Source: Massilia rubra (lineage in GTDB: Bacteria > Pseudomonadota > Gammaproteobacteria > Burkholderiales > Burkholderiaceae_D). From it: a DNA stretch of 64,000 nucleotides. Of this stretch, positions 27,165 to 64,000 are shown in pieces. Made by a program: the position numbers and the translations under genes. Location of the stretch: NCBI RefSeq assembly GCF_011682065.1, contig NZ_VUYU01000009.1, forward strand, positions 62,001-126,000, in the 5' to 3' direction. Every line of letters starts with the position of its first letter. The stretch's first letter is position 1. Below the pieces are notes generated by a model. It was not told the DNA's origin. It did not search any database and saw only the letters and a program-made list of their open reading frames with translations.

Positions 27165-27653
27165 TTAGCGGTAAGGGGCATCGGCCGCGCGCGCGGCGGC
27201 AATGTCGCCCTCGTAGCGATCGCCAACAGCCAGCAACATCTCTTTCGTATAGTACAGATCGCCGCGTTTTTCGCCGTGGTATTCCAGCACATGCGTCTCG
27301 ACGATCGAGTCGACCGGGCAGGATTCTTCGCAAAAGCCGCAAAAAATGCACTTGGTCAAATCGATGTCGTAACGCGTGGTGCGGCGCGAACCGTCGTCGC
27401 GCTGTTCCGATTCGATGGTGATCGCCATGGCCGGGCACACCGCTTCGCACAGCTTGCAGGCGATGCAGCGCTCTTCCCCGTTGGGGTAGCGGCGCAGCGC
27501 ATGCAGGCCGCGGAAACGCGGCGACATCGGGGTTTTTTCTTCCGGATACTGCACGGTGATCTTGCGCGAGAACGCATAGCGTCCGGTCAGCGCCAATCCC
27601 TTGATCAGTTCGGTCAGCAGCATGCTGCTGAAAAAGTCTTTCACTCGTTCCAT
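27165..27653 (-). CDS. nuoI: NADH-quinone oxidoreductase subunit I
   Basis: 162 residues from the ATG at 27653. Two 4Fe-4S ferredoxin motifs, [12 protein letters not shown] and [12 protein letters not shown], carry clusters N6a and N6b between NuoG and NuoB in the peripheral arm. An N-terminal amphipathic helix anchors it at the membrane. 10 bp downstream of nuoH. Confidence 0.98.
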
Positions 27654-27663
27654 TATCTCTTCC

Positions 27664-28755: not shown

Positions 28756-31094
28756 CAGACCCCCTCCCCTGCTTTTTCAACTGTGATCGCACCGAACATC
28801 GCGCCCAAGGTGGCGGTCAGCGGATGCGCCGAGGCGACACGCACGGTGTTGGCCGGCAGGCGGGCATCGACGCCGGCCACCAGGATGGCCGAGCCCGAAC
28901 CTTGCGACACTTTTACCTTGGCGCCGGCCTGCACGCCCAGCTTGGCGGCCAGGTCGGCCGGCAAGATCACCAGTGGCGCGTTGGCGTCGGCGGTGCGCAG
29001 CAGCGGCTCGGAACGGCGCGCGATGGCGTCGGCAAAGTAGATCGGCACATCGGTGACGCGTTCCAGCGCGGTGCCGGTGCCGTAGGCGGCGCTTTTCAAG
29101 GCGGCCTTGCCGGTGTTGTTCAGCTTGGCCGACAGGTCGGTCACGTCTTTGCCGAACAGCTCGTCGCGAATCGCTTCGGAGGTGTCGTACTCGAAACCGG
29201 ACAGGCCCAGCAGGTTGCCTAGCACGCGCAGCACTTTCCATGCCGGGCGGGTGTCGCCGAGCGGCTTGACGGTGCCGTTGAAACTTTGCGCGCGGCCTTC
29301 GCAGTTCACGAACGTGCCCGAGGTTTCGCTGAATGGCGACACCGGCAGCAGCACGTCGGCGTACTCGAAACCATGCTGGAAGGCCGACATGACGACGACC
29401 ATTTCGGCGCTGTCGAGCGCGGCGCGCGCTTGCTGCGGGTTGGCGCAATCGAGTTCCGGCTCGGCGTTGAGCAGCACGTAAGCTTTTTTCGGTACCGAAA
29501 ACACTGGCGCCGCGTTCTTGGCGAACGCGCCGACCAGGTAACCGCCGACCGTGTTGGCGGCCTCGGTCAGGTAACCGAACTTGGCGCCGGTCTGTTCGGC
29601 GATCCACTGCGCAGCCGCGTGCAGCGCGGACGCTTGCGGATGGTGGGCGGCGGCGTTGCCGAGCAAGACCACGCCCGGCAGGTTTTCGTCGCCGGTGTTC
29701 AGGCTGGCGGCAATCGCCTTGGCGGCATCGCTTGCTTCGATGTTCTCGAAACCGGCCGGCGCGGCCACGCCCTTGGCGGCGGCGACCGCGGCCACGATGC
29801 TCGACAAGGCGGCGAGCCAGTCGGACGGCGCGGCGATGATCTTGTTGGCGGTCGGGATCAACAGTTCGTCATCCGATGCGTGCACCAGCGACAGCTTGGC
29901 GCCGCCCTTGACGGCAGCGCGCAGGCGCGTGGCGACCAGCGGATGATCCTTGCGGATGAACGAACCGATGACCAGTGCGCGCTTAACAAGCGACAGCTCG
30001 GCGATCGGCATGCCCAGCCATGGCGTGACCTGGCCGTCCAGCGCGAAGTCGCTCTGGCGCAGGCGGAAGTCGACGTGCTCGGAACCGATGCCGCGGATCG
30101 CCTTTTGCAGCAAATGCAGCTCTTCGACGGTCGAATGGGCGGTGGCGACGGCGGCGATGCTGTCCGCGCCATGCTCATGCTTGATGTTGCGCAAGCCGTG
30201 CGCCACGTATTCGAGCGCGGTCTGCCAGTCGGTCTCGGCCCACTGGCCGCCCTGCTTGATCATCGGCTTGGTCAGGCGCGACTGGTTGTCCAGCGCTTCG
30301 TACGAGAAACGGTCTTTGTCCGAAATCCAGCACTCATTGATGCTGTCGTTTTCCAGCGGCAGCACGCGCATGACTTTGCCGCCCTTGACCTGGACGATCA
30401 GGTTGGTGCCGAGCGAATCGTGCGGGCTGACCGATTTGCGGCGCGACAGTTCCCAGGTACGGGCGCTGTAGCGGAACGGCTTGGAGGTCAGTGCGCCGAC
30501 CGGGCACAGGTCGATCATATTGCCCGACACTTCCGAATCGACGGTCTTGCCGACGAAGGAGGTGATTTCGGCATGTTCGCCACGGCCCAGCATGCCCAGT
30601 TCCATGACGCCGGCCACTTCCTGGCCGAAACGTACGCAACGGGTGCAGTGGATGCAACGGGTCATTTCCTGCATCGAGATCAGCGGGCCCGCATCTTTCG
30701 GCGGAACCACGCGTTTTTCTTCTTCGTAGCGCGAGTTCGACTTGCCGTAACCGACCGCCAAGTCTTGCAACTGGCATTCGCCGCCCTGGTCGCAGATCGG
30801 GCAGTCGAGCGGGTGGTTAATCAGCAAGAATTCCATCACGGATTTCTGTGCCTGTACCGCCTTTTCGCTGTTCGAACGCACGATCATGCCCGCCGAGACC
30901 GGCGTGGCGCAAGCCGGCAAAGGCTTGGGCGCCTTCTCGACTTCGACCAGGCACATGCGGCAGTTGGCTGCGATCGACAATTTCTTGTGATAGCAGAAGT
31001 GCGGAATGTAGGTGCCCAGCTTGTTGGCCGCGTCCATCACCATGCTACCCGGTGGGACTTCTACCTTCTTACCGTCAATTTCAATTTCAACCAT
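28755..31094 (-). CDS. nuoG: NADH-quinone oxidoreductase subunit G
   Basis: 779 residues. N-terminal 2Fe-2S domain ([20 protein letters not shown]), the His-ligated cluster region [12 protein letters not shown], 4Fe-4S motif [14 protein letters not shown] and the later [10 protein letters not shown] block, followed by a molybdopterin-oxidoreductase-like domain that lacks cofactor. Carries clusters N1b, N4 and N5 in the peripheral arm. 15 bp after nuoF. Confidence 0.98.
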
Positions 31095-31109
31095 GAGATT
31101 TCTCTGGCC

Positions 31110-32405
31110 TTAGATATAAGCGGGCACCAGACAGTGCTTGTGCTCGATGTGATATTCAAATTCTTCGCGGAAGTTCTTCACGAAAGCGCGTACCGGCATC
31201 GCCGCCGCATCACCGAGGGCGCAAATGGTGCGGCCCTGGATGTTGTCGGCGATCGAGTTGAGCATGTCCAGGTCGTCGGGACGGCCCTGGCCGTGCTCGA
31301 TGCGGTGGACCATGCGGTACATCCAGCCCGTGCCTTCGCGGCACGGCGTGCACTGGCCGCAAGACTCTTCATAATAGAAATACGACAGGCGCAGCAGCGA
31401 CTTGACCATGCAGCGCGTCTCGTCCATGACGATCACGGCGCCCGAACCGAGCATGGAGCCGGCCTTGGCGATCGAATCGTAGTCGAGATCGGTGTTCATC
31501 ATGAGCTCGCCACGGATCACCGGGGCGGACGAACCGCCGGGAATGACCGCCTTGATCTTTTTGCCGCCGCGCATGCCGCCAGCCAGTTCCAGCAGCTTGG
31601 CGAACGGCGTGCCGAGCGGCACTTCGTAGTTGCCCGGCAAGTTGACGTCGCCCGAGATCGAGAAAATCTTGCTGCCGCCATTGTTCGGCTTGCCGATGGC
31701 GGCGTACTTCTCGCCACCCATGTTCAGCAGGAAGGGCACGGCGGCAAACGTTTCGGTATTGTTGATCGTGGTCGGCTTGCCGTACAGGCCGAACGAGGCC
31801 GGGAACGGCGGCTTGAAGCGCGGCTGTCCCTTCTTGCCTTCGAGCGACTCGAGCAGCGCGGTTTCTTCGCCGCAGATGTAGGCGCCGTAACCGTGCGCGG
31901 CGTGCAGCTGGAAGCAAAATTCGCTGCCCATGATCTTGTCGCCCAGGAAGCCGGCGGCGCGCGCCTCGTCCAGTGCGTCTTCAAAGCGCGCGTATTCGGC
32001 CCAGATTTCGCCGTGGATGTAGTTGTAGCCGACCGTGATGCCCATCGCGTAGGCGCCGATGGCCATGCCTTCGATCAGCGCGTGCGGATTGTAGCGGATG
32101 ATGTCGCGGTCCTTGAACGTGCCCGGCTCGCCTTCGTCGGTATTGCAGACGAGGTATTTCTGGCCCGGGAACTGGCGCGGCATGAAGCTCCACTTCAAGC
32201 CCGTCGGAAAACCGGCGCCGCCACGGCCGCGCAGGGAACCGGCCTTGAGTTCGGCGATGATCGCTTCCGGCGTGATTTTTTCTTCCAGGATACGGCGCAG
32301 CGCGGAATAGCCGCCACGGTTCACGTAATCCTGCAAGTGCCAGTTCTGGCCGTCGAGGCCGGCCAGGATGACCGGGTCGATGTGACGTGAATGGAGCGAT
32401 GTCAT
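31110..32405 (-). CDS. nuoF: NADH-quinone oxidoreductase subunit F
   Basis: 431 residues from the ATG at 32405, overlapping the nuoE stop (ATGA). NADH and FMN binding loops [13 protein letters not shown] and [15 protein letters not shown]; the C-terminal [11 protein letters not shown] plus a distal Cys ligate cluster N3. NADH entry point of complex I. Confidence 0.98.
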
Positions 32406-32881
32406 TTCTTGAGTTCCTCGACCAGTGCATCGATTTTGCTGTCCGACATCAGGCTGCACATGCGCTTGTTATTGACCAGCATCACCGGCGCATCGGCGCA
32501 GGCGCCCATGCACTCGCCTTCGACCAGCGTGAACTGGCCGTCGGCCGAGGTGGCGCGGTAGCCGATGCCGAGTTTTTCTTGCAGATAGTGACCGGCGTGC
32601 TCGCCGCCCGACAGGGCGCACGGCAGGTTGGTGCACACGGAAATCTTGTACTTGCCGACCGGCTTGACGTTGTACATATTGTAGAAGGTCGCCACTTCCT
32701 GCACGGCGATGGCGGGCATGCCGAGGTAATCGGCGACATCCTGCATCACTTCCGGCGGGAGCCAGCCTTTTTCATCCTGCGCAATGGCGAGCGCCGCCAT
32801 GACCGCGGACTCTTTATGGTCGGGCGGATACTTGGCGACTTCACGGTCGATTTTTTTGTAAGACTGCTCTGATAACAACAT
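32402..32881 (-). CDS. nuoE: NADH-quinone oxidoreductase subunit E
   Basis: 159 residues. Thioredoxin-like 2Fe-2S subunit; the four cysteine ligands lie in [10 protein letters not shown] and [10 protein letters not shown] (cluster N1a). Pairs with NuoF in the NADH dehydrogenase tip. 25 bp after nuoD. Confidence 0.97.
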
Positions 32882-53042: not shown

Positions 53043-53615
53043 ATGGAACGAATACCTGAGGTAAGCGTGTTGCACAGGACGGAGTTACGCTTGCATGCGC
53101 TGTTCTTGCAGGGGCTCGACGGCGACAACGTGGCCTACCGCGCCTTTTTGCAGGCGACCGCGTCGCATTTGCGCGCGTTCCTGCGGCGGCGCCTGGGCGC
53201 TTGGCCGGATGAAGTGGAAGACCTGGTGCAGGAATCGCTGCTGGCGATCCACAACCAGCGCTTGAGTTACGATACCGCCGTGCCACTGACGGCGTGGATG
53301 GTAGCGATCGCCAGGTACAAGCTGATCGACTGGCTGCGCCGCCATGCCCGGCGCGACGCGATGAACGAGCCCTTGCCCGACGAAGACGCATTCTTTTCCA
53401 GCGCCGACGCCGATGCGGGCGAAGCGCGGCGCGACCTGGGCAAGCTGCTGGCCAGCCTGCCCGACAAGCAGCGCGAGGCGATCGTGTACACCAAATTGGA
53501 CGGCTTGTCGGTGCGCGAAGCGGCCGCCGCCTTGCAAATGACCGAAGCGGCGGTCAAAGTAGCGGTCCACCGCGGCTTGAAAACCCTGGCAACCCTCTTC
53601 AAGGATGCGCTATGA
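53043..53615 (+). CDS. ECF-type sigma-70 family RNA polymerase sigma factor
   Basis: 190 residues. Region 2 with DEVEDLVQESLLAIHNQR and LTAWMVAIARYKLIDWLRR; region 4 with LPDKQREAIVYTKLDGLSVREAAAALQM. Group-4 sigma. Its stop overlaps the next gene, a membrane anti-sigma. AT-rich upstream region has the near-perfect inverted repeat GCAAAAAAATTTTTGC at 52986-53001. Confidence 0.92.
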   Translation: MERIPEVSVLHRTELRLHALFLQGLDGDNVAYRAFLQATASHLRAFLRRRLGAWPDEVEDLVQESLLAIHNQRLSYDTAVPLTAWMVAIARYKLIDWLRRHARRDAMNEPLPDEDAFFSSADADAGEARRDLGKLLASLPDKQREAIVYTKLDGLSVREAAAALQMTEAAVKVAVHRGLKTLATLFKDAL

Positions 53616-54253
53616 ACACCGATGACTTGATTACCATGCTCGCCAGCGGCCCCGATGTGCGCGTGCAGCGCCGGTCCGCGCGGGTCACCCTCCTGCCGCT
53701 GGCGGCGGCCTTGCTGGTCAGCGGCATCATCGTGCTGGCCGGGCTCGGCTTGCGCGCCGATCTGGCCCAGGCGGCCAGCTTCTCGCCTTTCTGGATCAAG
53801 CTGGGCTTCTCCGTGGCGCTGGCGGCGGCCGGCGCCCTGGCGCTCAAGCGCCTGTCGACCCCGGGCGCGCGCAGCGCCGCGCCGGCGTTCCTGTTGAGCG
53901 CACCGGTGCTGCTGATCTGGTGCTTGGGTGCAACGGTCCTGTGGCAAGCCGCGCCCGAGCTGCGCGCCGAGCTGTTCTGGGGCCGCACCTGGCGCACCTG
54001 CCCCTTGCTGATCTCGCTCATTTCCCTGCCGCTGTTCGGCGCCGCGCTGCACGTGGTGCGCGCCCTGGCGCCGACCCGCTTGCGCCTGGCGGGCGCGGCG
54101 GCAGGATTCGGGGCGGGAGCGGCCGCCGCCGCCGTGTATTGCCTGCATTGCCCGGAAGCAAGCTCAGCGTTTGTGGGCGTCTGGTACCTGCTGGGCATGT
54201 TGATGCCGGCCATGCTGGGGGCACTGATCGGCCCGCGCGTGCTAGCCTGGTAG
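53612..54253 (+). CDS. NrsF-like (DUF1109) membrane anti-sigma factor
   Basis: 213 residues, six membrane helices; conserved CLHCPEASSAFVGVWYLLGM towards the C-terminus with the two Cys residues of DUF1109/NrsF proteins. These hold their ECF sigma factor inactive until the cysteines sense stress. Translationally coupled (ATGA) to the sigma gene. Confidence 0.88.
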   Translation: MNTDDLITMLASGPDVRVQRRSARVTLLPLAAALLVSGIIVLAGLGLRADLAQAASFSPFWIKLGFSVALAAAGALALKRLSTPGARSAAPAFLLSAPVLLIWCLGATVLWQAAPELRAELFWGRTWRTCPLLISLISLPLFGAALHVVRALAPTRLRLAGAAAGFGAGAAAAAVYCLHCPEASSAFVGVWYLLGMLMPAMLGALIGPRVLAW

Positions 54254-54381: not shown

Positions 54382-54426
54382 TTGTCAAACATTGTGCAAC
54401 TTTCTTTGACCGGGAGAACGACGCGC

Positions 54427-55788
54427 ATGCAAGCCCGACTGCCTCTCCCGCTCTGGATTCACCCCTTCGAACACGTCAGCGCCGCCCTGTGCGCCAAGGT
54501 GGCGGCGGCGCTGGAACAGGCCGGCATGCAGCTCGATCCCGGCGGCGCGCGCGCATCTGGCTTCGGCCTGGCCCTGCTCGACGGCATCGATGCCGCCGTG
54601 CTCGAGCGGGTGCGCAGCCTGGCCGCCGGCGCCACCGTGCTGGCCATCGCCGTTGGCGCGCGCGCCCCGGCCACGGCCGACATGTGGGCGTTGCTCGAGG
54701 CCGGCGCTTTCGACGTGCTCAACTGGACCGACGCCAGCGACGCCGCCGCCCGCGTGCGGGCCCGGCTCGAGCGCCGCGACGCCCTGCAGCGCCTGGCCGA
54801 CTCGCCCGAGGTGCGCACCACCCTGGTCGGCGCCAGTCCCGCCTGGCGCGCGCTGGTGCACAGCGTGGTCGAGGTGGCCGCCTTCACCGAGTCGCCGGTC
54901 CTGATCACCGGCGAGACCGGCACCGGCAAGGACCAGGTCGCGCAACTGATCCACCGCCTCGGCGGGCGCGGCGAACTGGTCGTGCTCGACTGCACCACGC
55001 TCACGCCCGAGCTGGCCGGCAGCGAACTGTTCGGCCACGAGCGCGGCGCCTTCACGGGAGCGGCCAACGCGCGCGACGGCGCTTTTGCGCTGGCCGACGG
55101 CGGCGTGCTGTTCCTCGACGAAGTGGGCGAGCTGCCCCTGCCCCTTCAGGCACAACTGTTGCGCGTGCTGCAGGAGCATACGTATAAGCGGGTCGGCAGC
55201 AACACCTGGCAGCGCTCGCGCTTCCGGCTGGTGTGCGCCACCAACCGCAGCCTGGAAGAGGAGGTGGCGAACGGGCGCTTCCGGGCCGACCTGTTCCACC
55301 GCATCGCCGCCTGGCGCTGCCGCACCCCGCCCCTGCGCGAACGCAGCGACGACGTGCTGCCGCTGGCGCAGCACTTCCTGGCGCTGCTGGCCGGCCCCGG
55401 CGCGGCCTGCGAATTCGACGACGCCGTGCGCGAATACCTGCTGCTGCGCGAATACCCCGGCAATGTGCGCGAACTGCGCCAGACCGTGGCGCGCCTGTGG
55501 TGCCGCCACAGCGGCCCCGGGCCGATCACCATCGGCGACCTGGCGCCCGACGAGCGGCCCGCGCGCGGCGCGCCCGCCAGCTGGCCCGACGTGCGCTTTG
55601 AAAGTGCGATCCGCGCCGCGATCGACCTGCGCATTGGCCTGGCGCGCATCAGCCAGGCCGCGGCCGACATCGCGATCCAGCTGGTGCTGGAACAGGAAGG
55701 CGACAACAACCAGCGCGCCGCCCTGCGCCTGGGCGTGACCGACCGCGCGCTGCAGATCAGGCGCAAAGCCTGGGCCGAGGCACACTGA
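54427..55788 (+). CDS. Sigma-54-dependent activator (AAA+ enhancer-binding protein)
   Basis: 453 residues from the ATG at 54427 (GGGAG 10 nt before); a TTG 15 codons upstream is weaker. Residues 1-120 look like a degenerate receiver without the phosphoacceptor pocket. AAA+ domain: Walker A GETGTGKD at 162-169, sigma-54 loop GAFTGA at 207-212, Walker B VLFLDE at 227-232, and the arginine finger region PPLRERSDD. C-terminal FIS-type HTH (NNQRAALRLGVTDRALQIRRK). Convergent with, and the likely regulator of, the minus-strand cluster next to it. Confidence 0.92.
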   Translation: MQARLPLPLWIHPFEHVSAALCAKVAAALEQAGMQLDPGGARASGFGLALLDGIDAAVLERVRSLAAGATVLAIAVGARAPATADMWALLEAGAFDVLNWTDASDAAARVRARLERRDALQRLADSPEVRTTLVGASPAWRALVHSVVEVAAFTESPVLITGETGTGKDQVAQLIHRLGGRGELVVLDCTTLTPELAGSELFGHERGAFTGAANARDGAFALADGGVLFLDEVGELPLPLQAQLLRVLQEHTYKRVGSNTWQRSRFRLVCATNRSLEEEVANGRFRADLFHRIAAWRCRTPPLRERSDDVLPLAQHFLALLAGPGAACEFDDAVREYLLLREYPGNVRELRQTVARLWCRHSGPGPITIGDLAPDERPARGAPASWPDVRFESAIRAAIDLRIGLARISQAAADIAIQLVLEQEGDNNQRAALRLGVTDRALQIRRKAWAEAH

Positions 55789-55792
55789 TGCG

Positions 55793-56521
55793 TCACTGAC
55801 GCCCGATCAGGCGCAGCAGATTTTGCCCCAGCACCAGCGCCTCGTCGTCCGGCGCCAGGCCGAGCATGCCGATCTTGGCCAGTTCCACGCCCGGATGCAG
55901 CCACGGGCCGTCGGAGCCGAACAGCAGCTTGTGCGCGCCGGCGCGGCGCACCGCCATTTCCAGCAGGTCGAAACGGCGCACGCCGGCGCTGTCGGCGTAG
56001 ATATTGCGGTGGCGCGCCAGATGGTCGACCAGCGCCAGCTGCGCGCTCCAGTCGTCGGCAAAGCTGCCCAGGTGCGGCAGGATGAAGTTCACGTCCGGGA
56101 ACTGGCTGGCCAGCAGTTCGGCCACCGCCACCTCGCCGGTCACGTCGTACAGCACCGGCAGGCGAAAGAAGCGCGCCGTTTCGCACACCTCGCGCGAGAT
56201 GCGCGCATCGTGCCGGTGCAGCTTGATGCCCACGAAACCGTACTCCTCGACGGCCACCCGCACCAGCGCGCGCACCCGCCCGCGGTCGCGCTGCGCATGC
56301 ACGAACGCGAAACCGTAGAAGCGGCCCGGATCGGCCGCCACGATGCGCGCCACGCTGCGGTTGGCCTGCGCATAGTCGGAGTGAAACGCGGCCAGCAGCA
56401 CCGTGCGCGCGATGCCGGCCCGGCGCGCCCGCGCCAGGTAGCGTTCGAGGCCGGCGTCACTATCCCACGGGCCCGAAAAGCCGTCGCCCTCGCCCGCGTG
56501 GCAATGGCAATCGATGATCAT
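55793..56521 (-). CDS. Amidohydrolase (TIM-barrel, PF04909-like)
   Basis: 242 residues. Metal-binding HxH in DCHCHAGEG at the N-terminus, then KLHRHD, the His in ILPHLGSF and the Asp in FGSDGPW, the order seen in amidohydrolase-2 enzymes that decarboxylate or hydrolyse small acids. Its start overlaps the end of the paralogue A gene by 4 bp. Last gene of the cluster. Substrate unknown. Confidence 0.85.
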   Translation of the reverse strand: MIIDCHCHAGEGDGFSGPWDSDAGLERYLARARRAGIARTVLLAAFHSDYAQANRSVARIVAADPGRFYGFAFVHAQRDRGRVRALVRVAVEEYGFVGIKLHRHDARISREVCETARFFRLPVLYDVTGEVAVAELLASQFPDVNFILPHLGSFADDWSAQLALVDHLARHRNIYADSAGVRRFDLLEMAVRRAGAHKLLFGSDGPWLHPGVELAKIGMLGLAPDDEALVLGQNLLRLIGRQ

Positions 56522-57153
56522 AGATCGAGCACGATCTGGCCGCGCCCCTGGCGGCGCCAGGTGCCGCTGTCGGCGCCACTGGCGCCGCCGGCCAGGCCCG
56601 GCTGGCGCATGCGCGGCAAGTGGCAGCGCAGCGCCGCGTCGACCGCGTCGCGCGCGGCGCGCTGCGGGTCCATGCCCTGCCCCGCCATGCCGGCCTGCTG
56701 GGCGGCGGTGCCGGCGATGCGCACGAAGCGGCGCGCCATTTCCAGCTCGCGCTCCTCGCCATCGAGACCGGCCGCTTCCATCTCCAGTGCCTTGGCGACG
56801 GCACTCCCGAGCGCGCCGCCAAGCATCGTGCCCACACCCGGAATCGGTATGAAGGAGCCGAGCGCCTTGCCCACGAACGGCAGCGCGGTCTTGGCCAGGC
56901 CCTTGAGCACGCCGCCGAGCGGCTTGGCGACCTTGCCGATGACGGAGCCGACCTTTTTCACGCCCTTCCAGATCCCCTTGAACATCTTGCCGAGGAACTG
57001 CTCGAGTTCTTCCTCGCTGGCGACCGACATCAATTCCATCGCCAGCGCGATTTCTTCCTGCTCCCCGAAGGGTCCGGGCGCTGCGAATTCGAGCACTTCC
57101 AGTTCGCCGGCCGTCTGGCGGCATTTGGCGCAACCACATCCTGATTCTTGCAT
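56518..57153 (-). CDS. Cluster paralogue A, glycine-rich protein of unknown family
   Basis: 211 residues from the ATG at 57153, after AAGGAG. N-terminus has a CGCAKC cysteine cluster. Then an acidic helix (EELEQFLGKM), a long hydrophobic Gly-rich region (GGVLKGLAKTALPFVGKALG, PIPGVGTMLGGALG), a charged helix (GEERELEMARRFVRIAG) and a C-terminal end GTWRRQGRGQIVLDL. Paralogous to B (62334-63050) and C (63135-63740). No known domain. The Gly-rich segment could insert in or coat a membrane. Confidence 0.75.
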   Translation of the reverse strand: MQESGCGCAKCRQTAGELEVLEFAAPGPFGEQEEIALAMELMSVASEEELEQFLGKMFKGIWKGVKKVGSVIGKVAKPLGGVLKGLAKTALPFVGKALGSFIPIPGVGTMLGGALGSAVAKALEMEAAGLDGEERELEMARRFVRIAGTAAQQAGMAGQGMDPQRAARDAVDAALRCHLPRMRQPGLAGGASGADSGTWRRQGRGQIVLDL

Positions 57154-57199
57154 GACGATCTCCTTCGGTTGATGAAGCGTTTGCATACGTTAAAGTAAG

Positions 57200-57829
57200 T
57201 CAGCCCCAGAACTCGCCGAGCAACTCGGCCTCCAGTTCCTTGCGCTGGTTGGTCAGCACGCCCGGCGGGTCGCCGGGCTTGCGCGGTTTGACACCCATCT
57301 GCGCATGCAGGTCCTTTTCGGTCTTGCGCCGCGCGGCCGCCGACGGCGCCGGCGCCACGAACACCCGATGCTTGCCCACGTCAAGCCCCAGCATGGTGGC
57401 GCACAGCAGATGCTGGCGCAGGCGGCGCCCCACGTTGTCGCTCTGGCCGCTGTAGGCGCGCTTGCCGGCCGGGCCATCGAACTCGATCAGGTACAGTCCC
57501 GCCAGGTTCGCTCCCACCTTCGCCACCGCGTCGCGCAGCGGACCGTAGGATGTGTAGCTTGGCGCGGCGGCCATCCTGGCCAGGGCGGGCGCGATGCTGG
57601 TGGGCTGTTCGTCCTGCGGTTCGTCATCCTCGATGGCGTAAGGAGCCGGTTCCGGCCACGGCGCCAGCACCGGATAGCGCCAGCCGCCCCAGGCCGGCCA
57701 GCGTGGCGCGCGCGCCTTGGCGGACCAGGTGCGGCCCGACGACGGCCGTGGTGCGCGCGCCGGCGCACCACGGCGGCCACCACGCTCTTGTTCCATTTCA
57801 AAAGCCACCATTTCAAATTCCGTATTCAT
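57200..57829 (-). CDS. GIY-YIG-type protein of the cluster
   Basis: 209 residues from the ATG at 57829, with AAGGAGG just before. Residues 1-90 are disordered and Pro/Ala/Arg-rich, starting with an acidic MNTEFEMVAFEMEQE leader. Residues 105-209 show the GIY-YIG pattern: GLYLIEF at 111, AYSGQSDNVGRRLRQH at 125-140 (Tyr, Gly, Arg and His conserved) and a Glu in KTEKDLH. A nuclease fold, but the second motif is YSG rather than YIG, so activity is uncertain. Overlaps the aminotransferase gene by 17 bp. Confidence 0.7.
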   Translation of the reverse strand: MNTEFEMVAFEMEQERGGRRGAPARAPRPSSGRTWSAKARAPRWPAWGGWRYPVLAPWPEPAPYAIEDDEPQDEQPTSIAPALARMAAAPSYTSYGPLRDAVAKVGANLAGLYLIEFDGPAGKRAYSGQSDNVGRRLRQHLLCATMLGLDVGKHRVFVAPAPSAAARRKTEKDLHAQMGVKPRKPGDPPGVLTNQRKELEAELLGEFWG

Positions 57830-58886
57830 ATTCCCTCCTTGTATGTCTGGCCGTCGGCGCCTGCGCGCGCAGGCAGGCCGCCAGCAGCGCCAGTGCGCGT
57901 TCGATGTCGTCCGGCGCGTGGCGCGCCGTGACGATGAAACTGAGCGTGGCCCGCGCACCCGCGCGCTGCAGCACCGCATCGACGCCGGCGCGGCGCAGGC
58001 AGGCGTGCAGCGCATCGCCATCGATATCGCGCCGCAGCGCCAGCGTCTGCACCGGAAACGCACTCGCATGCAGCGCAATGCCATGCCTGGCCGCCCCAAG
58101 GCGCCACTGGGCCACGCGCCGCCACAGGCGCGAGCGCAGCTGGTCGCCGTGCGCGCGATTGATGCGCAACGCCGCCAGCGCGGCCCGGATCGCCGCCACC
58201 GACGGCGGGCTCGAATGCACGCGCGCCTGGCTTGATTGCCCGAAGCGGCGCACCAGCTCCGTGCTGGCGCACAGCACCGCCAGCGGCGCGCCGAACGCTT
58301 TCGAGAGCGAACTGCCGACCACCACGTGCGGCCCTTGCACGCCGTGCCGGCGCAGCGAACCGCCGCCGGCGGCGCCGAACAGGCCGACCACCTGTGTGTC
58401 GTCGAGCACCAGCCAGCCGCCCGCCTCGCGCATCAACGCCGCGTAGGCGGCCAGTGGCGGTGGTCCGGGCGCGCCGGGCGAATAGCCGTCGGCCAGGATC
58501 AAGGGGCGCCGTCCCTGCTGGCGTGCGCTGCGCGCCAGCCTGCGCGCGCCGTCCACGTCGGCCGGCGCGAACACCGTCAGCGGCGTGCCGCGCGCGGCCG
58601 CCCGTTCGGCGCCGGTGCGCGCGATCGGATAGCTGGCGCCATCGACCAGGATCGCCAGCGGTTCGCGCGCCAGCAGGTCGAACAGGTCGCAGAACAGGTG
58701 CAAGGTCGATGGCAGCAGGGTCGCCGCCTGGCAGCCGCACAGCAGCGCCAGCGCTTGCGCCAGTTGCGCGGCCCCCGGCGGCTCCATGCTGGCCGCCGGC
58801 CGCCCCAGGGTCAGCGCGTCCCAGCCGCCCAGGTCCGCGCTGGGATGGCGCATGCCGAGATACAGGGCGCTGGAAAAGTCGAGCAT
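57813..58886 (-). CDS. PLP-dependent aminotransferase, alpha-oxoamine-synthase-like
   Basis: 357 residues. Fold type I: PLP-binding Lys196 in GSSLSKAFGAPLAV; the Asp in LVLDDTQVVGLFG stacks with the pyridine N; the final third has the ADDIERALALL small domain. Shorter than BioF/KBL (about 385-400) and with diverged active-site surroundings. Three bases after the 702-residue gene. Could make or modify an amino acid-derived moiety for the system; inference. Confidence 0.75.
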   Translation of the reverse strand: MLDFSSALYLGMRHPSADLGGWDALTLGRPAASMEPPGAAQLAQALALLCGCQAATLLPSTLHLFCDLFDLLAREPLAILVDGASYPIARTGAERAAARGTPLTVFAPADVDGARRLARSARQQGRRPLILADGYSPGAPGPPPLAAYAALMREAGGWLVLDDTQVVGLFGAAGGGSLRRHGVQGPHVVVGSSLSKAFGAPLAVLCASTELVRRFGQSSQARVHSSPPSVAAIRAALAALRINRAHGDQLRSRLWRRVAQWRLGAARHGIALHASAFPVQTLALRRDIDGDALHACLRRAGVDAVLQRAGARATLSFIVTARHAPDDIERALALLAACLRAQAPTARHTRREYEYGI

Positions 58887-58889
58887 GGC

Positions 58890-60998
58890 CTACGCCATCC
58901 TCGCTTGCTGCTCCAGGCGGCGGCGCAGCAGGATCGAGGGCAAGGTGCCTTCCGCCTTCGGATCGCGCGCATCGACCGTCAGGTCGACCCCGGTGGCGGC
59001 GCGGTAGGCGTGGATGTAGCCCTGGATCTGCGGACGCCAGAAGCGCGCCCAGTTGAAGGCCTGGGTCGGCTCGTAGATGTCGCTCCAGGCGCCGTAGCGC
59101 ACCGACAGCAGCACCTGTTCGCCGAACATGGCCAGGCTGCGGAAGTGCATCACGCTCGTATCGGACCATCCCTGCAGCTTTTTCATGGCGTCGACCCGAT
59201 CCATCCACGGTTCCGGATAGGCGACCATGATGCGGGTCGGGAGGAACTCGCGGAACTCGGGCCGCGCCAGCATCCACTGCTGCATCAGCATTTCGATGCG
59301 CGCCGTCGATGGCAGGTCGCCGAACTGGTTGTGCGCGCCCTGCGACAGGATCAGGTGCACCTCCTTGAGGCCATTGAGCACCGGGAAGGCGTCGGCCTTG
59401 ACGGTGGTGTCGTCGTCCTGGCGATAAAAGGCGGTGCACAGGCGCAGCAAGTAATGAAAGGCTTCGAGGAATTTCGAGCGCGTGTCGGCCGGGCGGAAAT
59501 GCTGGACCGCCTTGCCGTCGAGCCGCACGCCGTAATGGTGGTCGTACTCGTAATTGCGCCGCACCACGGTGAGGCGATGTTGTTCATCCTGCGTGTAACC
59601 CCAGATGAGGTTATTCAGGGGGCGCAGCGGGTCGATTTCGAGGTTCGCCAGCGGGTCGTCGCGGCCCAGCGCGCGCACGTTCTGGAAGCGCTGGGTGATC
59701 GCGTTCATGGTCTGCACCAGCATGCCCTCTTCGTGCCAGTAGGACCAGATCAGCTCCAGCAGGCAGGGATTGGCCAGCTTTTGCTGGACGATGCCGAAGC
59801 ACAGATCGGCCTCGCCCTCGATCCCGCGCAGCAGGTGGATCGGCACGTCGGGCAGCTTGCGCCGGATGATCGCCAGGTACGGCAGCACCTTGGTGCCGTC
59901 CACCGTGGTTTCGAGGTAGTCGGCGTTGAAGGTGGTTTCCAGGTCGCGCGTGGCCGGAATATCGCGCCGGTCGAGGTAGGCCTGGTCTTCGACCGGATTG
60001 AACATGTTCGGTTGGCTCAGGACCCCGCAGTTGACCATCACGAACGCTTCGGTCGCCACCTTGAGCACGCGGTAGGCTTCCGAATCGTTGAAGGGCAAAG
60101 CGCGGCGCTGGCGCAACTGCTCGAACAGCTGGCTTTTTGCGTCGAAGGCGGCAGTACGGTTGGCCGGGGTGCAGAACAGCGCATCCATGAAGTTCAGGTA
60201 GTTCGTAAACGACATCGCATCGGTGCTGTTGCGGATCAGGGTCCACAGCGGCAGGTCGTCGGTCGGCTCGGTCTCGGTGCGCGTCATCGAAACGCCGATG
60301 TTGCCCGAGATCGGGCTCGGCGTGCGCTCGTCGGCGACAAAGCCCTGGCGGATGCCGATCATGGCCGGCGCAGCCAGTGGCGCCATGTTGATGCCCGGCG
60401 CCAGCGCGGCCGCCGAGGGCCTGCGTTCGAACGCCAGCACCGCCTCGAACTGCTGCGGCCCGGCGTGGCGCACCACGCGCGAGAGCACGTACGGATCGTC
60501 CTCGCGCGCGATCCATCCGGGCGTGGGCAGCAACCGCACATGGGGCTTGAGGTCGGACTGGTTGCCGGAAAAGCGGATCGTGGCCACCACCCGGTCGGCC
60601 ACGCGCGCCACGCTGCAGGTGTTGGCCTGGCAGTCGACCGTTTCGTAACTGAGTTCGGCGCGCAGTTCCAGCGCCAGCTGGAAGCAGACCACGGCGCGGC
60701 AGCCGCCATCGACCTTCACGCAGCGCGGCTCGGTCAGCGGGTAGTGCTCGTAGACGACCACGTAGCTGCCCGGCGCCAGGTTGGCCACCGTGGCCTCGCC
60801 CGCGCTGCCGGTGACGGCGGTCGCTTCCAGGACTTCGTACGACGGCGTCCAGCGGGCCGCCTCGAAACTGTCGATGCCGGCCGGGTGGCGATACACGCTG
60901 ACGGCGCCATTCGACACCGGCGCGCCGGTCTGGGCCTCGTGCACGGTCACCTCGAGCGACCCGGTACGGGCGTCCTTCAGATTGTTCTTGCTGCTCAT
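58890..60998 (-). CDS. Large protein of unknown function (702 aa)
   Basis: 702 residues. Residues ~12-100 look like a carboxypeptidase-regulatory/Ig-like beta-sandwich (GSLEVTVHEAQTGAPVSNGAVSVY ... PGSYVVVYEHYPL). Residues 130-700 are a large helical region rich in Trp/Tyr with conserved-looking stretches such as FNDSEAYRVLKVATEAFVMV and LIWGYTQDEQHRLTVVRRNYEY. No signal peptide, no membrane helices, no domain I can name. Eleven bases downstream of the metallopeptidase gene. Probable core, scaffold or effector of the cluster. Confidence 0.7.
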   Translation of the reverse strand: MSSKNNLKDARTGSLEVTVHEAQTGAPVSNGAVSVYRHPAGIDSFEAARWTPSYEVLEATAVTGSAGEATVANLAPGSYVVVYEHYPLTEPRCVKVDGGCRAVVCFQLALELRAELSYETVDCQANTCSVARVADRVVATIRFSGNQSDLKPHVRLLPTPGWIAREDDPYVLSRVVRHAGPQQFEAVLAFERRPSAAALAPGINMAPLAAPAMIGIRQGFVADERTPSPISGNIGVSMTRTETEPTDDLPLWTLIRNSTDAMSFTNYLNFMDALFCTPANRTAAFDAKSQLFEQLRQRRALPFNDSEAYRVLKVATEAFVMVNCGVLSQPNMFNPVEDQAYLDRRDIPATRDLETTFNADYLETTVDGTKVLPYLAIIRRKLPDVPIHLLRGIEGEADLCFGIVQQKLANPCLLELIWSYWHEEGMLVQTMNAITQRFQNVRALGRDDPLANLEIDPLRPLNNLIWGYTQDEQHRLTVVRRNYEYDHHYGVRLDGKAVQHFRPADTRSKFLEAFHYLLRLCTAFYRQDDDTTVKADAFPVLNGLKEVHLILSQGAHNQFGDLPSTARIEMLMQQWMLARPEFREFLPTRIMVAYPEPWMDRVDAMKKLQGWSDTSVMHFRSLAMFGEQVLLSVRYGAWSDIYEPTQAFNWARFWRPQIQGYIHAYRAATGVDLTVDARDPKAEGTLPSILLRRRLEQQARMA

Positions 60999-61008
60999 GT
61001 CATTCTCC

Positions 61009-62328
61009 TCAATGGAAAGTCAAAGGTGCCCGGGCAGGCGCCGGCGCTCGCGTATCCAGCGAGGCGCACAGGAAGCTCGTATCGAGCGTGCTGCGCAGCG
61101 CCCAGTGCGTCAGCAGTTTGGCCAGCAGGACGTTTTCTTCTTCCGGCCCGACCAGGCCATCGGCGCGCGCCTGGCCCAGCACCGCGAACACCAGCGATGG
61201 CGGGGCGCGGTACATTTGCGCGGGCGCGTTCTCCCAGCGCCGGTACAGCGATAACAGGGCCGCCGGCTGGCGCGACGCCACGTCGAGCACCTCGGGCAGG
61301 GTTTTGCCGCGCAGTGCGGCGGGCCGGTGCCGGATCAGCAGCTGCACGAACGCCGGCATGCCGCGCCGCAGCCGCCGCAAGAGATCGACCGTCTCCGGCG
61401 CCAGGGTCGCGCTCGGGTAGTAGTCGTGCCACACCGTGGCCAGGCGCTCCCATTGCGGATGCGGATACAGGGCCTGCCCCATCGCGCAACTGAGCATCAC
61501 GCGGATCCACGGAATCGGATGCGGGTCGTCGGGGCTTAAGCGAAACACGAACACGCGCGGCAGGCTGACCACGCCGATCAGGCCCAGGGTCGAGACCACG
61601 CCGACCCGCGCCACCGACCAGAAGTCGGCCACGATCTCGGAGATCCAGCGTTCCCACCACTGCCACACTTCGCGCTGGTCGGCATCGCTTTGCTGCATCG
61701 CCTGCAATTGCGGGCGCAGCGAATTGACCAGGTCGAGCAGGGCCGCGCCCTGGTGCCCGACCTCGTGGATGAGGGAAGAGGCGATGCCGCTGCCGATCAT
61801 GCGTTCGCGCGGCACCCGCACCACCGCCACCGGGTTCTCGCCGCCGCCCGGCAGGCGGGTGCGCGCGCGCCGGATCGCCGCGCCCGGCCCCCGGTCCAGG
61901 TAGCAAACCACGGGCGGCAGGCGATAGTAGTTACCGGGCAGCGCCAGGGCGTCGGCCGCGACCGCGTCCAGGCCCGACAGCCACACCCCGTTTTCGTGCT
62001 CGCTGCGCTGGGTGATGACGTCGTTGAACAAATCGAACTGGGTCAGGGTGGCGTTGAACTTCAGGCGCAGGAAGGTAAAGCGGCGCTGGGCCTCGGCCGC
62101 CGTGGCGCTCGCGCGCGCGCCGGCCAGCCAGTGCTGGAAGGCCGACACCAGCGCCTGCAGCTCGCGCCGCCCCGTGACCAGGTAGCGCTCGAGCGCCGAC
62201 TGGGCCGACGGCAGCAGCGCGGCGGCCGGCACCATGGGCTCGATCAGGGCAAAGGGGCGGACCCGCGCCAGCCTGGTTTGCAGGGAGCGCGCCTCCTGTT
62301 CGAGCAGCGACGCGGCATACGGGCTCAT
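61009..62328 (-). CDS. Zinc metallopeptidase (HExxH, gluzincin-like) of the cluster
   Basis: 439 residues. HEVGH at 188-192 within SSLIHEVGHQGAALLDL, followed 40 residues later by EIVADFWSVA with Glu231 as the likely third zinc ligand and Asp235: a gluzincin-like arrangement. Soluble, helical N-terminal part, no signal peptide. Five bases after paralogue B. May process the paralogues or another cluster product; this is inference. Confidence 0.75.
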   Translation of the reverse strand: MSPYAASLLEQEARSLQTRLARVRPFALIEPMVPAAALLPSAQSALERYLVTGRRELQALVSAFQHWLAGARASATAAEAQRRFTFLRLKFNATLTQFDLFNDVITQRSEHENGVWLSGLDAVAADALALPGNYYRLPPVVCYLDRGPGAAIRRARTRLPGGGENPVAVVRVPRERMIGSGIASSLIHEVGHQGAALLDLVNSLRPQLQAMQQSDADQREVWQWWERWISEIVADFWSVARVGVVSTLGLIGVVSLPRVFVFRLSPDDPHPIPWIRVMLSCAMGQALYPHPQWERLATVWHDYYPSATLAPETVDLLRRLRRGMPAFVQLLIRHRPAALRGKTLPEVLDVASRQPAALLSLYRRWENAPAQMYRAPPSLVFAVLGQARADGLVGPEEENVLLAKLLTHWALRSTLDTSFLCASLDTRAPAPARAPLTFH

Positions 62329-62333
62329 GACGG

Positions 62334-63050
62334 TCAGGCGCCGTAGATGACGATCTTGTTGCCCTGGCGGCTCCAGCGTCCACTGGCGCCACGGCCCCCG
62401 CCCGCCGACATGCCGCCACCCGCCGCCATGCCGCTGCCGCCCAGCCCTGCCCCGCCGCCGCAGCTGCCGCAGCCGCCCGAGGCGCCGCGTTTGAGCAGGC
62501 CGGGCGCATGCTGGCGCGCCGCCGCCATGGCAGCACTCTGGGCAATCGCGCGCGGGTCGCCCGAGCCGCTCGCCTGCGACGCCTTCTGCACCGTGTCGGC
62601 GGCCAGGCGCACGAACTGGCGCGCGCCTTCGTACTCGCGGTCTTCGCCGCTCATTTCACCTTCCAGGCCAAGCGCGCCGCCGGCCGCCGAGGCCAGGCCG
62701 CTGCCGATCTTGGCGCCCAGTGGGCCGCCGAAATAGCCCCCGATGGCGCCACCGGCCAGCGGCAGCGCTTTTTTGGCCACGCCTTTGAGCACGCCGCCGA
62801 CGGCTTGCCCGATCGGCGAGCGGATGACGCGGCCGGCGGTGGAGCCGACCTTGCGGATGAAGTCACCGAGGAACTGGTCGAGCTCCGCTTCGCTGTTCAC
62901 GTTCAGCAGTTCCTGCGCGAATTCGGCTTCCTGCTGCTCGTTCAGACTGGCCTCGCCACTCCACTCGCCCTGGCCGAATTCGAACTGTTCGCCCTCGAAG
63001 CTGGAGGTTTCCTGGCCATATTCCATGGTCGTGCGGTCGATGTCATGCAT
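62334..63050 (-). CDS. Cluster paralogue B, glycine-rich protein of unknown family
   Basis: 238 residues from the ATG at 63050 (GAGGAG before it). Acidic, Phe/Glu-rich N-terminus (EFGQGEWSGE), helix EAELDQFLGDFIRKVG, hydrophobic segment GGVLKGVAKKALPLAGGAIG, then GEDREYEGARQFVRLAADT, a Gly/Cys-rich stretch (GGCGSCGGGAG) and a final GRWSRQGNKIVIYGA. Same plan as A and C. No known domain. Confidence 0.75.
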   Translation of the reverse strand: MHDIDRTTMEYGQETSSFEGEQFEFGQGEWSGEASLNEQQEAEFAQELLNVNSEAELDQFLGDFIRKVGSTAGRVIRSPIGQAVGGVLKGVAKKALPLAGGAIGGYFGGPLGAKIGSGLASAAGGALGLEGEMSGEDREYEGARQFVRLAADTVQKASQASGSGDPRAIAQSAAMAAARQHAPGLLKRGASGGCGSCGGGAGLGGSGMAAGGGMSAGGGRGASGRWSRQGNKIVIYGA

Positions 63051-63134
63051 GATGCGCTCCTCTAGAAAAATGAAACAACAAGGTGAAACAACGAAGTAAA
63101 ACAACACAGCGCCCGGATGGACAATCCGTCCGGA

Positions 63135-63740
63135 TCAGCAATCGTGAAGAATCAGTTGGCCCGCCTGGCGGGTCCAGCGTCCCTGCGTGGCCGGGCGCGC
63201 GTGCACATGCGGCAGCAAGCCCGGTGCGACCTGGCGCGCGGCGGCCTGCACGGCGGCGCGCGCGGACCGCGGCGATGGGTGGCCATCCTCGCCCGCACGG
63301 CCGGCGTGGCGCGCGGCGTGGTCGGCCAGGCGCACCAGCTGGCGCGCCAGGATGAATTCCTTGTCCTCGGGGCTGAGCCCTTCGAGTTCGAGGCCGAACA
63401 TGCGCGCACCGAGGTTGATGCTCACCGTTTTCGCGCTGGCGCCACGCGCAAGGCGGCGCTGCGGCGACAGGATCGGTTGCACGGCGCGCAGCAGTTCGGT
63501 GACCAGCAAGGGACCCATGGGCGAGCGGGCCACGCGCGCACCGAGCACGCCGGCGCCGGCGATGGCGCGGCTTAGCACGCGGCGCAGGTCGGCCGGTTCG
63601 GCCGCTTCGAGCAGTTCGGCGGCCAGCGCCAGGTCGGCGCTGTCGTCCGAGAGCGGGCCGGCCTCGTCCTCCTGCGCGCGCGGCGCGGGATGGGTGAAGA
63701 TGTCGAACACCGGACTGTATTCAAGCAAGCGACGGTTCAC
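63135..63740 (-). CDS. Cluster paralogue C, first gene of the cluster
   Basis: 201 residues with a GTG start at 63740 after AAAGGGG. Shares the order of A and B: helix LALAAELLEAAEPADLRRVL, SPMGPLLVTELL, then GLSPEDKEFILARQLVRLAD, and the ending GRWTRQAGQLILHDC. Its hydrophobic segment is shorter and less Gly-rich. Transcribed from the sigma-54-type promoter at 63814-63829, leader ~63 nt. Confidence 0.75.
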   Translation of the reverse strand: MNRRLLEYSPVFDIFTHPAPRAQEDEAGPLSDDSADLALAAELLEAAEPADLRRVLSRAIAGAGVLGARVARSPMGPLLVTELLRAVQPILSPQRRLARGASAKTVSINLGARMFGLELEGLSPEDKEFILARQLVRLADHAARHAGRAGEDGHPSPRSARAAVQAAARQVAPGLLPHVHARPATQGRWTRQAGQLILHDC

Positions 63741-63813
63741 GGGCGGCCCCTTTCATCTGTGCTGGATGCGCGGGGAAGAAAGGTGATGCTGCCGCGCGTC
63801 GTGCTTTATCCAT

Positions 63814-63829
63814 TGCAAGGGCTGTGCCA
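63814..63829 (-). promoter_or_regulatory. Sigma-54 (-24/-12) promoter of the cluster
   Basis: On the minus strand TGGCACAGCCCTTGCA, preceded by C, matches YTGGCACG-N4-TTGCW at all but one position (A for G after TGGCAC) with exact GG-GC spacing. Predicted start near 63803, 63 nt before the GTG of paralogue C. The cluster's neighbouring gene encodes a sigma-54 activator. Confidence 0.8.
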
Positions 63830-63871
63830 GCGTGCGTGAGGGGCAAACGGCCGGCTTGCCGGCGTCGGCGG

Positions 63872-63927
63872 CGAAACGCGTTTCGTGGAAGCGGTATAGT
63901 GACGCCGGCACGGCGAAAAGCGTTTCG
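63872..63927. promoter_or_regulatory. Two 14-bp palindromes, probable activator sites
   Basis: CGAAACGCGTTTCG (63872-63885, perfect) and CGAAAAGCGTTTCG (63914-63927, one mismatch between halves) are near-identical. Centres are 42 bp apart, four helical turns. Measured from the sigma-54 start they lie near -76 and -118, where enhancer-binding-protein sites usually are. Alternatively they are operators for the divergent gene at 63963, whose possible -10 (TATAGT, 63895-63900) lies between them. Confidence 0.65.
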
Positions 63928-63962
63928 CGATCGCGCCGGCCTCCCACTGTGAAGGAGAAAGC

Positions 63963-64000
63963 ATGCGTCAATGGATGTTTGCAATCGGTACGATGCTGGC
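63963..64000 (+). CDS. Start of an exported protein, cut by window end
   Basis: Ribosome site AAGGAG 6 nt before the ATG at 63963; the twelve codons visible (MRQWMFAIGTML) look like the start of a signal peptide. Nothing more can be said. The palindromes at 63872-63927 lie in its promoter region. Confidence 0.5.
   Translation, partial: MRQWMFAIGTML

Follow-up and report, generated by a model that had tools for sequence, protein, structure and literature searches.

Gene content of the locus

We describe here a nine-gene system in a 64,000-nucleotide stretch of the Massilia rubra genome (contig NZ_VUYU01000009.1, positions 62,001 to 126,000, forward strand; hereafter the window, in whose numbering positions are given). 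In the open reading frame (ORF) list of the window, eight minus-strand ORFs, A to H, fill positions 55793–63740. The largest gap, 84 bp, lies between A and B, followed by spacings of 5 bp (B–C), 10 bp (C–D), 3 bp (D–E) and 46 bp (F–G), with overlaps of 17 bp between E and F and of 4 bp between G and H. An earlier note on this DNA had reported eight packed genes at these positions, and this was confirmed; the interval leaves out a ninth gene, R (54382–55788, plus strand), and a control region (63814–63927). We regard it as virtually certain that the locus forms a single conserved module whose control region is of sigma54 type.

Reading from the control region, the operon begins with A (63135–63740, minus strand like all genes to H; 201 amino acids (aa) from a GTG start) and B (62334–63050; 238 aa from ATG), which are the paralogues P1 and P2. 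They are followed by C, a predicted zinc metallopeptidase (61009–62328; 439 aa), and D (58890–60998), a protein of 702 aa with a beta-sandwich N-terminal part and a helical C-terminal part. E (57813–58886; 357 aa) is a pyridoxal phosphate (PLP) enzyme resembling alpha-oxoamine synthases of the BioF group. F (57200–57829; 209 aa, N-terminus MNTEFEMVAFEMEQERG) occupies a variable cargo position and is here GIY-YIG-like; G (56518–57153; 211 aa, with an N-terminal CxCxxC) is the third paralogue, P3; and H (55793–56521; 242 aa) is a predicted metal-dependent hydrolase of the Amidohydro_2 family. R, a sigma54-dependent activator of 468 aa with an AAA+ domain and a GAFTGA motif, is convergent with H and ends 4 bp from it on the opposite strand.

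At its own cut-offs Pfam names just E (Aminotran_1_2) and H (Amidohydro_2) among the eight, and for A, B, C and G it returned nothing beyond weak chance-level matches. NCBIfam gave one weak match each for A, B and D (E-values of 0.05–0.11, far under cut-off) and none for C, F, G and H. The PHROGs search, which took in the six window proteins other than E, H and R, produced weak matches alone, that of B being to a family of unknown function (0.0052). A known anti-phage defence system was considered and rejected, as the gene set fits no PADLOC model: for the nine proteins PADLOC returned R's AAA region and a weak match of F (0.0037), and nothing else.

Linkage, distribution and control

A species-genome collection was scanned with D, and the best 80 of its 181 relatives were analysed; gene starts at these related loci were picked by script, and lengths and N-termini are approximate. 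Judged by record names, the 80 come mostly from Massilia, Janthinobacterium, Duganella and their allies, and from other beta-, gamma- and alpha-proteobacteria; further records, many of them metagenome-assembled, are labelled Nitrospira, Nitrospirota, Acidobacteria, Chloracidobacterium, Chloroflexales, Methylomirabilis and Bacteroidetes. In the 81 loci formed by these 80 and the window, phmmer located C in 78 loci and E in 75; the three P queries matched in 73, 75 and 75, H in 61 and F in 36. The prevailing order is P-P-C-D-E-cargo-P-H, and R is convergent (65 ORFs, spread over 64 of the 81 loci). Seven loci from plasmids and sampled genomes brought the set to 88, and in the 65 of these with at least 4 kb before and at least 7.5 kb after D, both C and P are present in all 65, R in 64, E in 61 and H in 58. 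One locus from the class sample described below (L135) holds P, C, D and R together with one Amidase_2 and one trypsin-family protein, and neither E nor H was found in it. Because P, C, D and R are kept there without E or H, these four are the core of the module, and E and H are common, not universal. The GIY-YIG position varies between loci, and E- and H-type genes are absent from some. A contig labelled Chloroflexales (L083; 3.7 kb) shows C, D and E only.

The module is rare and patchy. D occurs in 2 of 200 genomes of an order-level sample, its own included, and in 4 of 369 of a class-level sample (its own, G641, G854 and G755). Across a phylum-level sample of 398 genomes, strong D matches were found in four, its own again included, with two weak partial ones (about 0.005); strong P matches occur in those same four genomes, with nine weak ones (8e-8 to 0.009), and C in the four strong-D genomes and in two carriers of a sister type described below (G296, G364). 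Within the genus D is present in 7 of 17 genomes, and it was also found in four plasmid records, three of which were inspected. In each of six sampled genomes whose contig is long enough (G170, G260, G435, G510, G641 and G854), P, C, D and R are found side by side; the contig of G755, 3.7 kb in length, carries C and also a D that is divided between two ORFs.

The view that the genes form one system is thus borne out: the gene set and its order recur in dozens of loci, and P, C and the 702-aa gene are linked in unrelated genomes. Scattered, unlinked homologues, which the earlier note had named as speaking against a single system, were not what the loci and genome samples contained; linkage was conserved. 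Pairwise distances of C, D, E, H and R are correlated (Pearson 0.80–0.91), and since such correlations include shared species history they show co-inheritance, not contact. A neutral cluster of unrelated genes brought together by functional coincidence, as the mixture of enzyme families might suggest, is hardly conceivable in view of the linkage across loci labelled Proteobacteria, Nitrospira, Acidobacteria and Chloroflexales, the common control region and the correlated distances.

Upstream of A, on the minus strand, lies a sigma54 −24/−12 promoter, TGGCACAGCCCTTGCA (63814–63829; weighted score 15/15), together with two CGAA-N6-TTCG dyads (63914–63927 and 63872–63885) that are 42 bp apart, start to start. 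The single strong promoter claimed previously therefore holds in so far as there is one recognisable promoter, of sigma54 type and with a linked activator; no sigma70-type site was found in 55600–64000 (shuffles 0.6). Upstream regions were counted in 69 of the 81 loci, 12 being dropped for having no usable first P or less than 250 bp upstream. A sigma54 score of at least 13/15 is reached in 66 of these 69 regions, compared with 5.9% of random stretches from the same loci and 2.6% of shuffles. At least one dyad was found within up to 420 bp upstream in all 69 loci, the window included, compared with 64 of 3250 control chunks elsewhere, and alternative dyad spacers of 2 to 12 gave 0–7 of the 69 regions.

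The spacing between dyads is equally regular. Of 77 pairs lying 31–59 bp apart, drawn from 89 loci, 61 are at 42 bp, 10 at 41 and 3 at 43. Pairs at 41–43 bp number 73 in the 1.66 Mb of the 88 loci, and 72 of them sit 1.9–4.8 kb before D, the remaining one belonging to a locus (L051) in which the reading frame assigned to D is too long; twenty shuffles contained no such pair. A strict pattern, a pair at 41–43 bp followed by a sigma54-like site, is present in 62 of the 75 loci (among the 88) that have 450 bp upstream and missing from 13; in L098 the dyad pair is absent. The shuffles used for promoter, dyad pairs and the protein motif treated below preserve single-letter composition alone, the real-sequence controls for the sigma54 site and the dyads being stronger, and both the dyads and the FExxPF-like motif were counted in the very sequences that defined them. 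In the 7.57 Mb genome of M. rubra the zero-mismatch pair occurs as a single copy, upstream of A, and one more place matches with one mismatch; a wider regulon of R in this genome was rejected on that count.

R matches PF00158 (Sigma54_activat) at 3.1e-55, and an exact GAFTGA is present in 63 of 72 R proteins, including that of the window. Its C-terminal residues are conserved; no helix-turn-helix (HTH) model from Pfam matched there up to an E-value of 0.1, no Pfam family matched the N-terminal domain, and all 25 NCBIfam models listed (of 28) were far below their cut-offs. R is the proposed regulator of the operon and would act by binding the dyads. L135 carries, besides the usual convergent R, a second R-like gene upstream of P and on the same strand (L135:4980-6395, plus).

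Directly past R, at 53294–54253 on the plus strand, the window holds an NrsF-type anti-sigma gene (PF06532, 5.2e-59). In the genus, where a fixed place or an island was looked for, an nrsF relative lies at most 8 kb from D in three genomes (G578, G580, G582); three others have D and no nrsF match (G579, G584, G592), and in three genomes without D (G581, G587, G590) nrsF matches occur at 44–69% identity. Farther off, at 22392–32459 on the minus strand, are the nuo genes of respiratory complex I, an ordinary chromosomal operon.

Core proteins, associated enzymes and cargo

The P-family profile matches three genomic places at E ≤ 0.01, every one inside the operon, and because it matches just those three, A, B and G are paralogues, as had been supposed. 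Identity to B is 31% for A and 37% for G. B has an acidic-aromatic N-terminus (SSFEGEQFEFG), a cationic glycine-rich centre and a C-terminal GRWxRxGxxIxxxG. P proteins number 133 ahead of D, from 78 loci, and 62 behind it, from 61 loci, and the two positions differ: MHDxD near the N-terminus occurs in 62 of the 133 versus none of the 62, and CxCxxC in none of the 133 versus 50 of the 62, the C-terminal GxWxR being found in 123 and 44, respectively. Averaged over 196 P proteins, net charge is −4.9 and −7.6 in segments 1 and 2 and +4.8 and +3.0 in segments 3 and 4, with the sign preserved in at least 90%; segments 3 and 4, which follow the acidic part, are glycine/alanine-rich. Fusions of P with cargo also occur (L059, L061, L068).

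C carries HEVGH (188–192), ExxxD (231–235), H270-P271 and R276, and this His/Glu/Asp/Pro/Arg signature, including H188, E189, H192, E231 and D235, is invariant in 25 aligned sequences, three of which have just 21–23% identity. We take HExxH with a downstream Glu ligand within ExxxD to be the thermolysin (gluzincin) pattern. No Pfam or NCBIfam family was matched and the best PDB sequence match had an E-value of 0.99; from these residues C is a predicted zinc metallopeptidase, without assignment to the gluzincins. A distant C relative lies on a Bradyrhizobium plasmid (L122:4800-18054) with patatin-like, phospholipase D-like, DUF2252, two CHAT and GMC oxidoreductase genes, a cluster that might represent a third context for the C family.

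The N-terminal part of D (about 7–225) is a prealbumin/CnaB-like beta-sandwich, with a Foldseek match of 1.1e-6 to a pilin, a target template modelling (TM) score of 0.73 over 104 columns for the CnaB2 domain 8bdw, and CarboxypepD_reg under cut-off in Pfam. The helical C-terminal part (about 240–702) is highly conserved, 51 positions being invariant in 50 sequences. Mean predicted local distance difference test (pLDDT) was 64.7 in a first model of D, with the helical part largely below 50, and 65.6 in a second model of residues 236–702 (predicted TM score 0.67). The best E-values of the helical-part model, 0.41 among PDB structures and 0.49 among viral ones, amount to no match. This part could possibly have a new fold, for which a weak model is poor evidence. 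A relationship to protein X (367–402 aa) of the sister type, which had looked likely by eye, was rejected at an hhalign probability of 0.4%.

The best NCBIfam match of E is bioF (7.5e-17; 61.1 bits compared with a cut-off of 426), with many others, all far under cut-off. D162, S193 and K196 are conserved in at least 95% of 76 sequences, K196 and D162 being the PLP lysine and aspartate. The motif of E reads DDTQ, with the PLP lysine and aspartate retained, where BioF-type enzymes show DxxH; this suggests that E acts on a different substrate from theirs. H scores above the Amidohydro_2 cut-off (7.7e-18), and H6, H8, H102, H150 and D204 are conserved in at least 95% of 63 sequences.

These two enzymes would have a place in a modified-peptide or small-molecule system, one of the three readings of the operon offered in the earlier note. 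P proteins would be the precursors, E the acyl-transferring PLP enzyme, C the leader peptidase, and H together with the M20 cargo described below the tailoring hydrolases. The leader-like N-terminal part of P, the resemblance of E to alpha-oxoamine synthases and the wide presence of E and H (61 and 58 of the 65 loci) fit such a scheme. E is missing, however, from four of the 65 loci (L049, L076, L098, L102) and H from seven, and L135 lacks both yet keeps P, C, D and R. As E and H are dispensable, the ribosomally synthesised and post-translationally modified peptide (RiPP) reading is weakened; no exporter was recognised, the cell-wall hydrolases among the cargo go unexplained by it, and the positive evidence for it consists of the presence of E and H. 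We consider it very unlikely.

F scores 14.9 bits with the Pfam GIY-YIG model, whose gathering cut-off is 22.6, and a relative in L040 reaches 24.1. Y113, Y126, G128, R136, E171 and N194 (F numbering) are conserved in at least 95% of 51 relatives; all of these except G128 are presumably catalytic positions of GIY-YIG nucleases, and F looks like a putative nuclease of this type. To define cargo, we collected from the 88 loci the 158 ORFs between D and R that are neither E nor H, 47 of which are P alone. Counted by locus and by similarity to seed domains, GIY-YIG is present in 50 of the 88, peptidoglycan (PG)-binding in 25, Amidase_2 in 12, OmpA-like in 9, M20 in 8 and trypsin-like in 4, and 20 cargo ORFs match none of the seed domains. 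Pfam annotation of chosen examples identified Amidase_2 with PG_binding_1 in L062 (where GIY-YIG is also just under cut-off) and L068, Muramidase with Amidase_2 and PG_binding_1 in L069, and Glucosaminidase with DUF2272 and PG_binding_1 in L099. Further examples are VanY (L052, L076), NlpC/P60 (L040), Trypsin-type (L047, L059) and OmpA (L047, L054) proteins; some chosen cargo, such as the accessory proteins of L043 and L041, had no Pfam match.

The frequency of PG-binding and OmpA-like domains relative to Amidase_2, and the sharing of one ORF with GIY-YIG by PG-binding ten times and by Amidase_2 six times, could be interpreted as an envelope-anchored machine for DNA processing or uptake, or for blocking incoming phage DNA at the envelope. 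Tagged proteins would bind peptidoglycan, P would form a channel and GIY-YIG would cut passing DNA, and the pilin-like beta-sandwich domains on D would suit such an apparatus. Trypsin, VanY and muramidase cargo is unsuited to a DNA machine, and PADLOC fits none of the nine genes apart from the AAA part of R and the weak match of F. This interpretation strikes us as quite improbable.

A short motif, FExx(x)[PAQSL]F, recurs among the cargo and P. Of 111 accessory ORFs, 48 bear it, and these are spread over 46 of the 72 loci that have an accessory ORF; the shuffle mean is 2.7 and the maximum 9. The motif is also present in 80 of 200 P ORFs; the controls are C 0/85, E 1/80, H 0/67 and R 1/72. In 41 of the 48 motif-bearing accessory ORFs a Met lies at most 12 residues before the motif. 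By a second measure, at least five Phe/Tyr/Trp–Asp/Glu dipeptides per 45 residues, the best segment qualifies in 35 of 97 accessory ORFs without P and the bodies in 3 of 97 (controls: C 0/85, D 4/88, E 0/80, H 1/67, R 0/72). An FExxPF-like N-terminus in cargo is hence a strong tendency and not a rule. Among the motif-bearing accessory proteins are L040:12216-13022, L043:12114-12935 and L047:4610-5374. The L047 copy has an HEPFH stretch suggesting a metallopeptidase; the guess of an M35-like peptidase for the L043 and L047 proteins was dropped, as neither L043 nor L047:4973-5374 had a Pfam match.

A second type of the system, referred to here as the sister type, exists in three loci (L121, L123, L130), which encode acidic glycine-rich P-like proteins and C relatives and have neither R nor the dyad pair. 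LuxR-family genes (GerE) replace the sigma54 activator in L121 and L130. The relationship of P to the P-like proteins of L121 and L123 was detected by hhalign (96.6%, 5e-10), and that of L130 was judged by eye. L121 contains M20 and an H relative, L123 an M74 endopeptidase, and L130 a trypsin-family protein and a CxCxxC protein with a GIY-YIG-like stretch seen by eye that has no Pfam match. The large sister-type proteins that were tested had no Pfam match at 0.01. On the Paraburkholderia plasmid that carries L121, the locus is flanked by a WD40-repeat protein (Pfam; L121:1908-4604, minus) and, by eye, a DUF4062/NTPase-like protein (L121:16995-18686, plus).

Interpretation and comparison with known systems

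We suggest that the nine-gene system may represent a bacterial weapon, or a device for self-destruction, of a new kind. With somewhat less than even confidence, we interpret it as a sigma54-switched cassette of tagged effectors with an antagonistic role, because interchangeable DNA-, wall- and protein-cutting cargo under one switch typifies antagonism; the acid-masked cationic P, the linked peptidase and the common N-terminal motif suggest processing and loading. R would bind the two dyads about 42 bp apart and switch on the sigma54 promoter of the operon, whose core products would be the P proteins together with C as zinc peptidase and D as a scaffold-like protein. In the P precursors an acidic Phe/Glu-rich N-terminal part would mask a cationic glycine-rich amphipathic segment, and C would cleave P (or cargo), freeing this segment for membrane entry. 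The FExxPF-like motif would be an address tag through which the core collects cargo enzymes, with D as the assembly platform. The product would harm bacterial DNA, cell wall and membrane, other cells being likelier targets than the producer alone. We infer from sequence and gene context the processing of P or cargo by C, the membrane entry of P, the motif as tag, D as platform and the bacterial targets alike, and the entry of P into membranes is a guess. Two readings given in the earlier note, a protease-processed membrane-inserted product and a conflict module, fit together in this scheme.

A number of observations weigh against the antagonistic cassette. The cationic segments of P show only mild hydrophobicity (mean Kyte-Doolittle 0.56 and 0.61). 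The platform role of D was reached by elimination, its helical part having a low-confidence model and no structural match. E and H look metabolic, and their role in the scheme is unexplained. The motif is absent from 63 of the 111 accessory ORFs, M20 cargo being without it, and present in 15 of 88 D proteins; it was defined post hoc from these sequences, and the relatives are non-independent. The F protein of the window carries no cell-wall domain, and P3 (G) has two weak PHROGs matches, one to an endolysin family (5.5e-5) and the other to a tail tape-measure family (0.0082), that would agree with other readings. No transporter, needle or secretion genes were recognised in the conserved set or in ten flanking-family representatives, and no immunity genes were noticed by eye in the gene maps, a dedicated search not having been made. 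Delivery to other cells is therefore unsupported. A bolder reading, which we hold to be rather unlikely, is a new class of delivery or killing machine working without a contractile, type VI secretion system (T6SS)-like or ATP-binding cassette (ABC)-type apparatus. The three acid-masked, glycine-rich P proteins, freed by C and organised by the 702-aa scaffold, would build a membrane-active assembly loaded with the tagged enzymes; one sigma54 activator at the paired dyad would switch the whole, and the machine would exist in at least two types, one under sigma54 control and one associated with LuxR.

The main rival is programmed self-lysis or cell death, in which P would be holin-like, the tagged hydrolases endolysin-like and GIY-YIG would destroy the cell's own DNA, with sigma54 limiting the process to some cells and the release of DNA or goods as the outcome. 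Export genes would not be needed, and no immunity gene was noticed. PG_binding_1 and Amidase_2 in one protein, with no signal peptide by eye, resemble an endolysin; P is glycine-rich, and the weak PHROGs match of P3 is to endolysins. Lysis should, on the other hand, require a cell-wall hydrolase, and none is recognised in the window. Amidase_2, the commonest wall-hydrolase domain counted, is found in just 12 of the 88 loci, the other classes being known from examples, and these two facts weaken the self-lysis explanation. C and D, large and invariant, would moreover be without a role in a simple holin/endolysin pair. Self-lysis is, on balance, unlikely.

If the motif is indeed such a tag, it would amount to a compact way of gathering lytic enzymes and nucleases under a single switch, and a short address that is testable by reporter fusion. 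N-terminal cargo addresses are known in PVC/extracellular contractile injection systems. Irrespective of the tag, none of P, C and D reaches the cut-off of a Pfam or NCBIfam family or has a PADLOC model, yet the three stay linked in Proteobacteria and in Nitrospira-, Acidobacteria- and Bacteroidetes-labelled records, and the control region is so regular that it can be picked out from DNA alone. The tag reading, if right, would also offer an initial hypothesis for many genes of nitrifiers and of soil and water bacteria that are still unnamed. No description of it was found in the open-licence literature.

Among known systems, sigma54 enhancer-binding proteins (RtcR, NorR, NifA, NtrC and others) share with R the AAA+ sigma54-interaction domain and GAFTGA; R differs in having an N-terminal domain without a Pfam family and a C-terminal HTH undetected at 0.1. 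Phage holin/endolysin cassettes and explosive cell lysis (PMC4834629) have in common with the module glycine-rich proteins beside PG_binding_1 and Amidase_2 enzymes, whereas sigma54 control, C, D and nuclease-like cargo set the module apart. A phage origin, or a prophage lysis cassette, was rejected, as relatives of D and P are absent from viral contigs (in pattern-limited scans) and D is absent from phages. NTP-dependent conflict systems, in the portion of PMC7159879 drawn on here, likewise place a zincin beside rapidly diverging proteins and include peptidoglycan-directed effectors, whereas no STAND, MoxR-vWA or EAD component was recognised at our loci; the main text of that paper has 0 occurrences of 'GIY-YIG', 'amidohydrolase' and 'sigma-54'.

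The cargo of PVC/extracellular contractile injection systems, in the passages of PMC3482391 used here, offers a closer likeness, an HExxH...E zincin accompanying diverse effectors, often immunity-free. The PVC-metallopeptidase is a domain inside a toxin, whereas C is a stand-alone gene without a Pfam family, and membership in this class was rejected because no contractile apparatus gene was recognised among the conserved or flanking families examined. Polymorphic toxins, as far as the same excerpts of PMC3482391 extend, resemble the module in their constant part, their interchangeable nuclease, peptidase, wall-hydrolase and OmpA-like cargo and the peptidase alongside; 'GIY-YIG' is mentioned once in that full text. 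They consist of one long toxin with a swapped C-terminus, whereas here the cargo proteins are separate and share at most a short N-terminal motif, with no secretion system recognised in the conserved families and ten flanking representatives and no immunity gene noticed by eye. If the function proved to be a polymorphic-toxin variant, the system would count as a variant rather than as categorically new. R, E, F and H are members of known superfamilies or resemble them, and the module taken whole fits none of the known kinds with which it was compared; the P, C and D core and the combination appear to be new.

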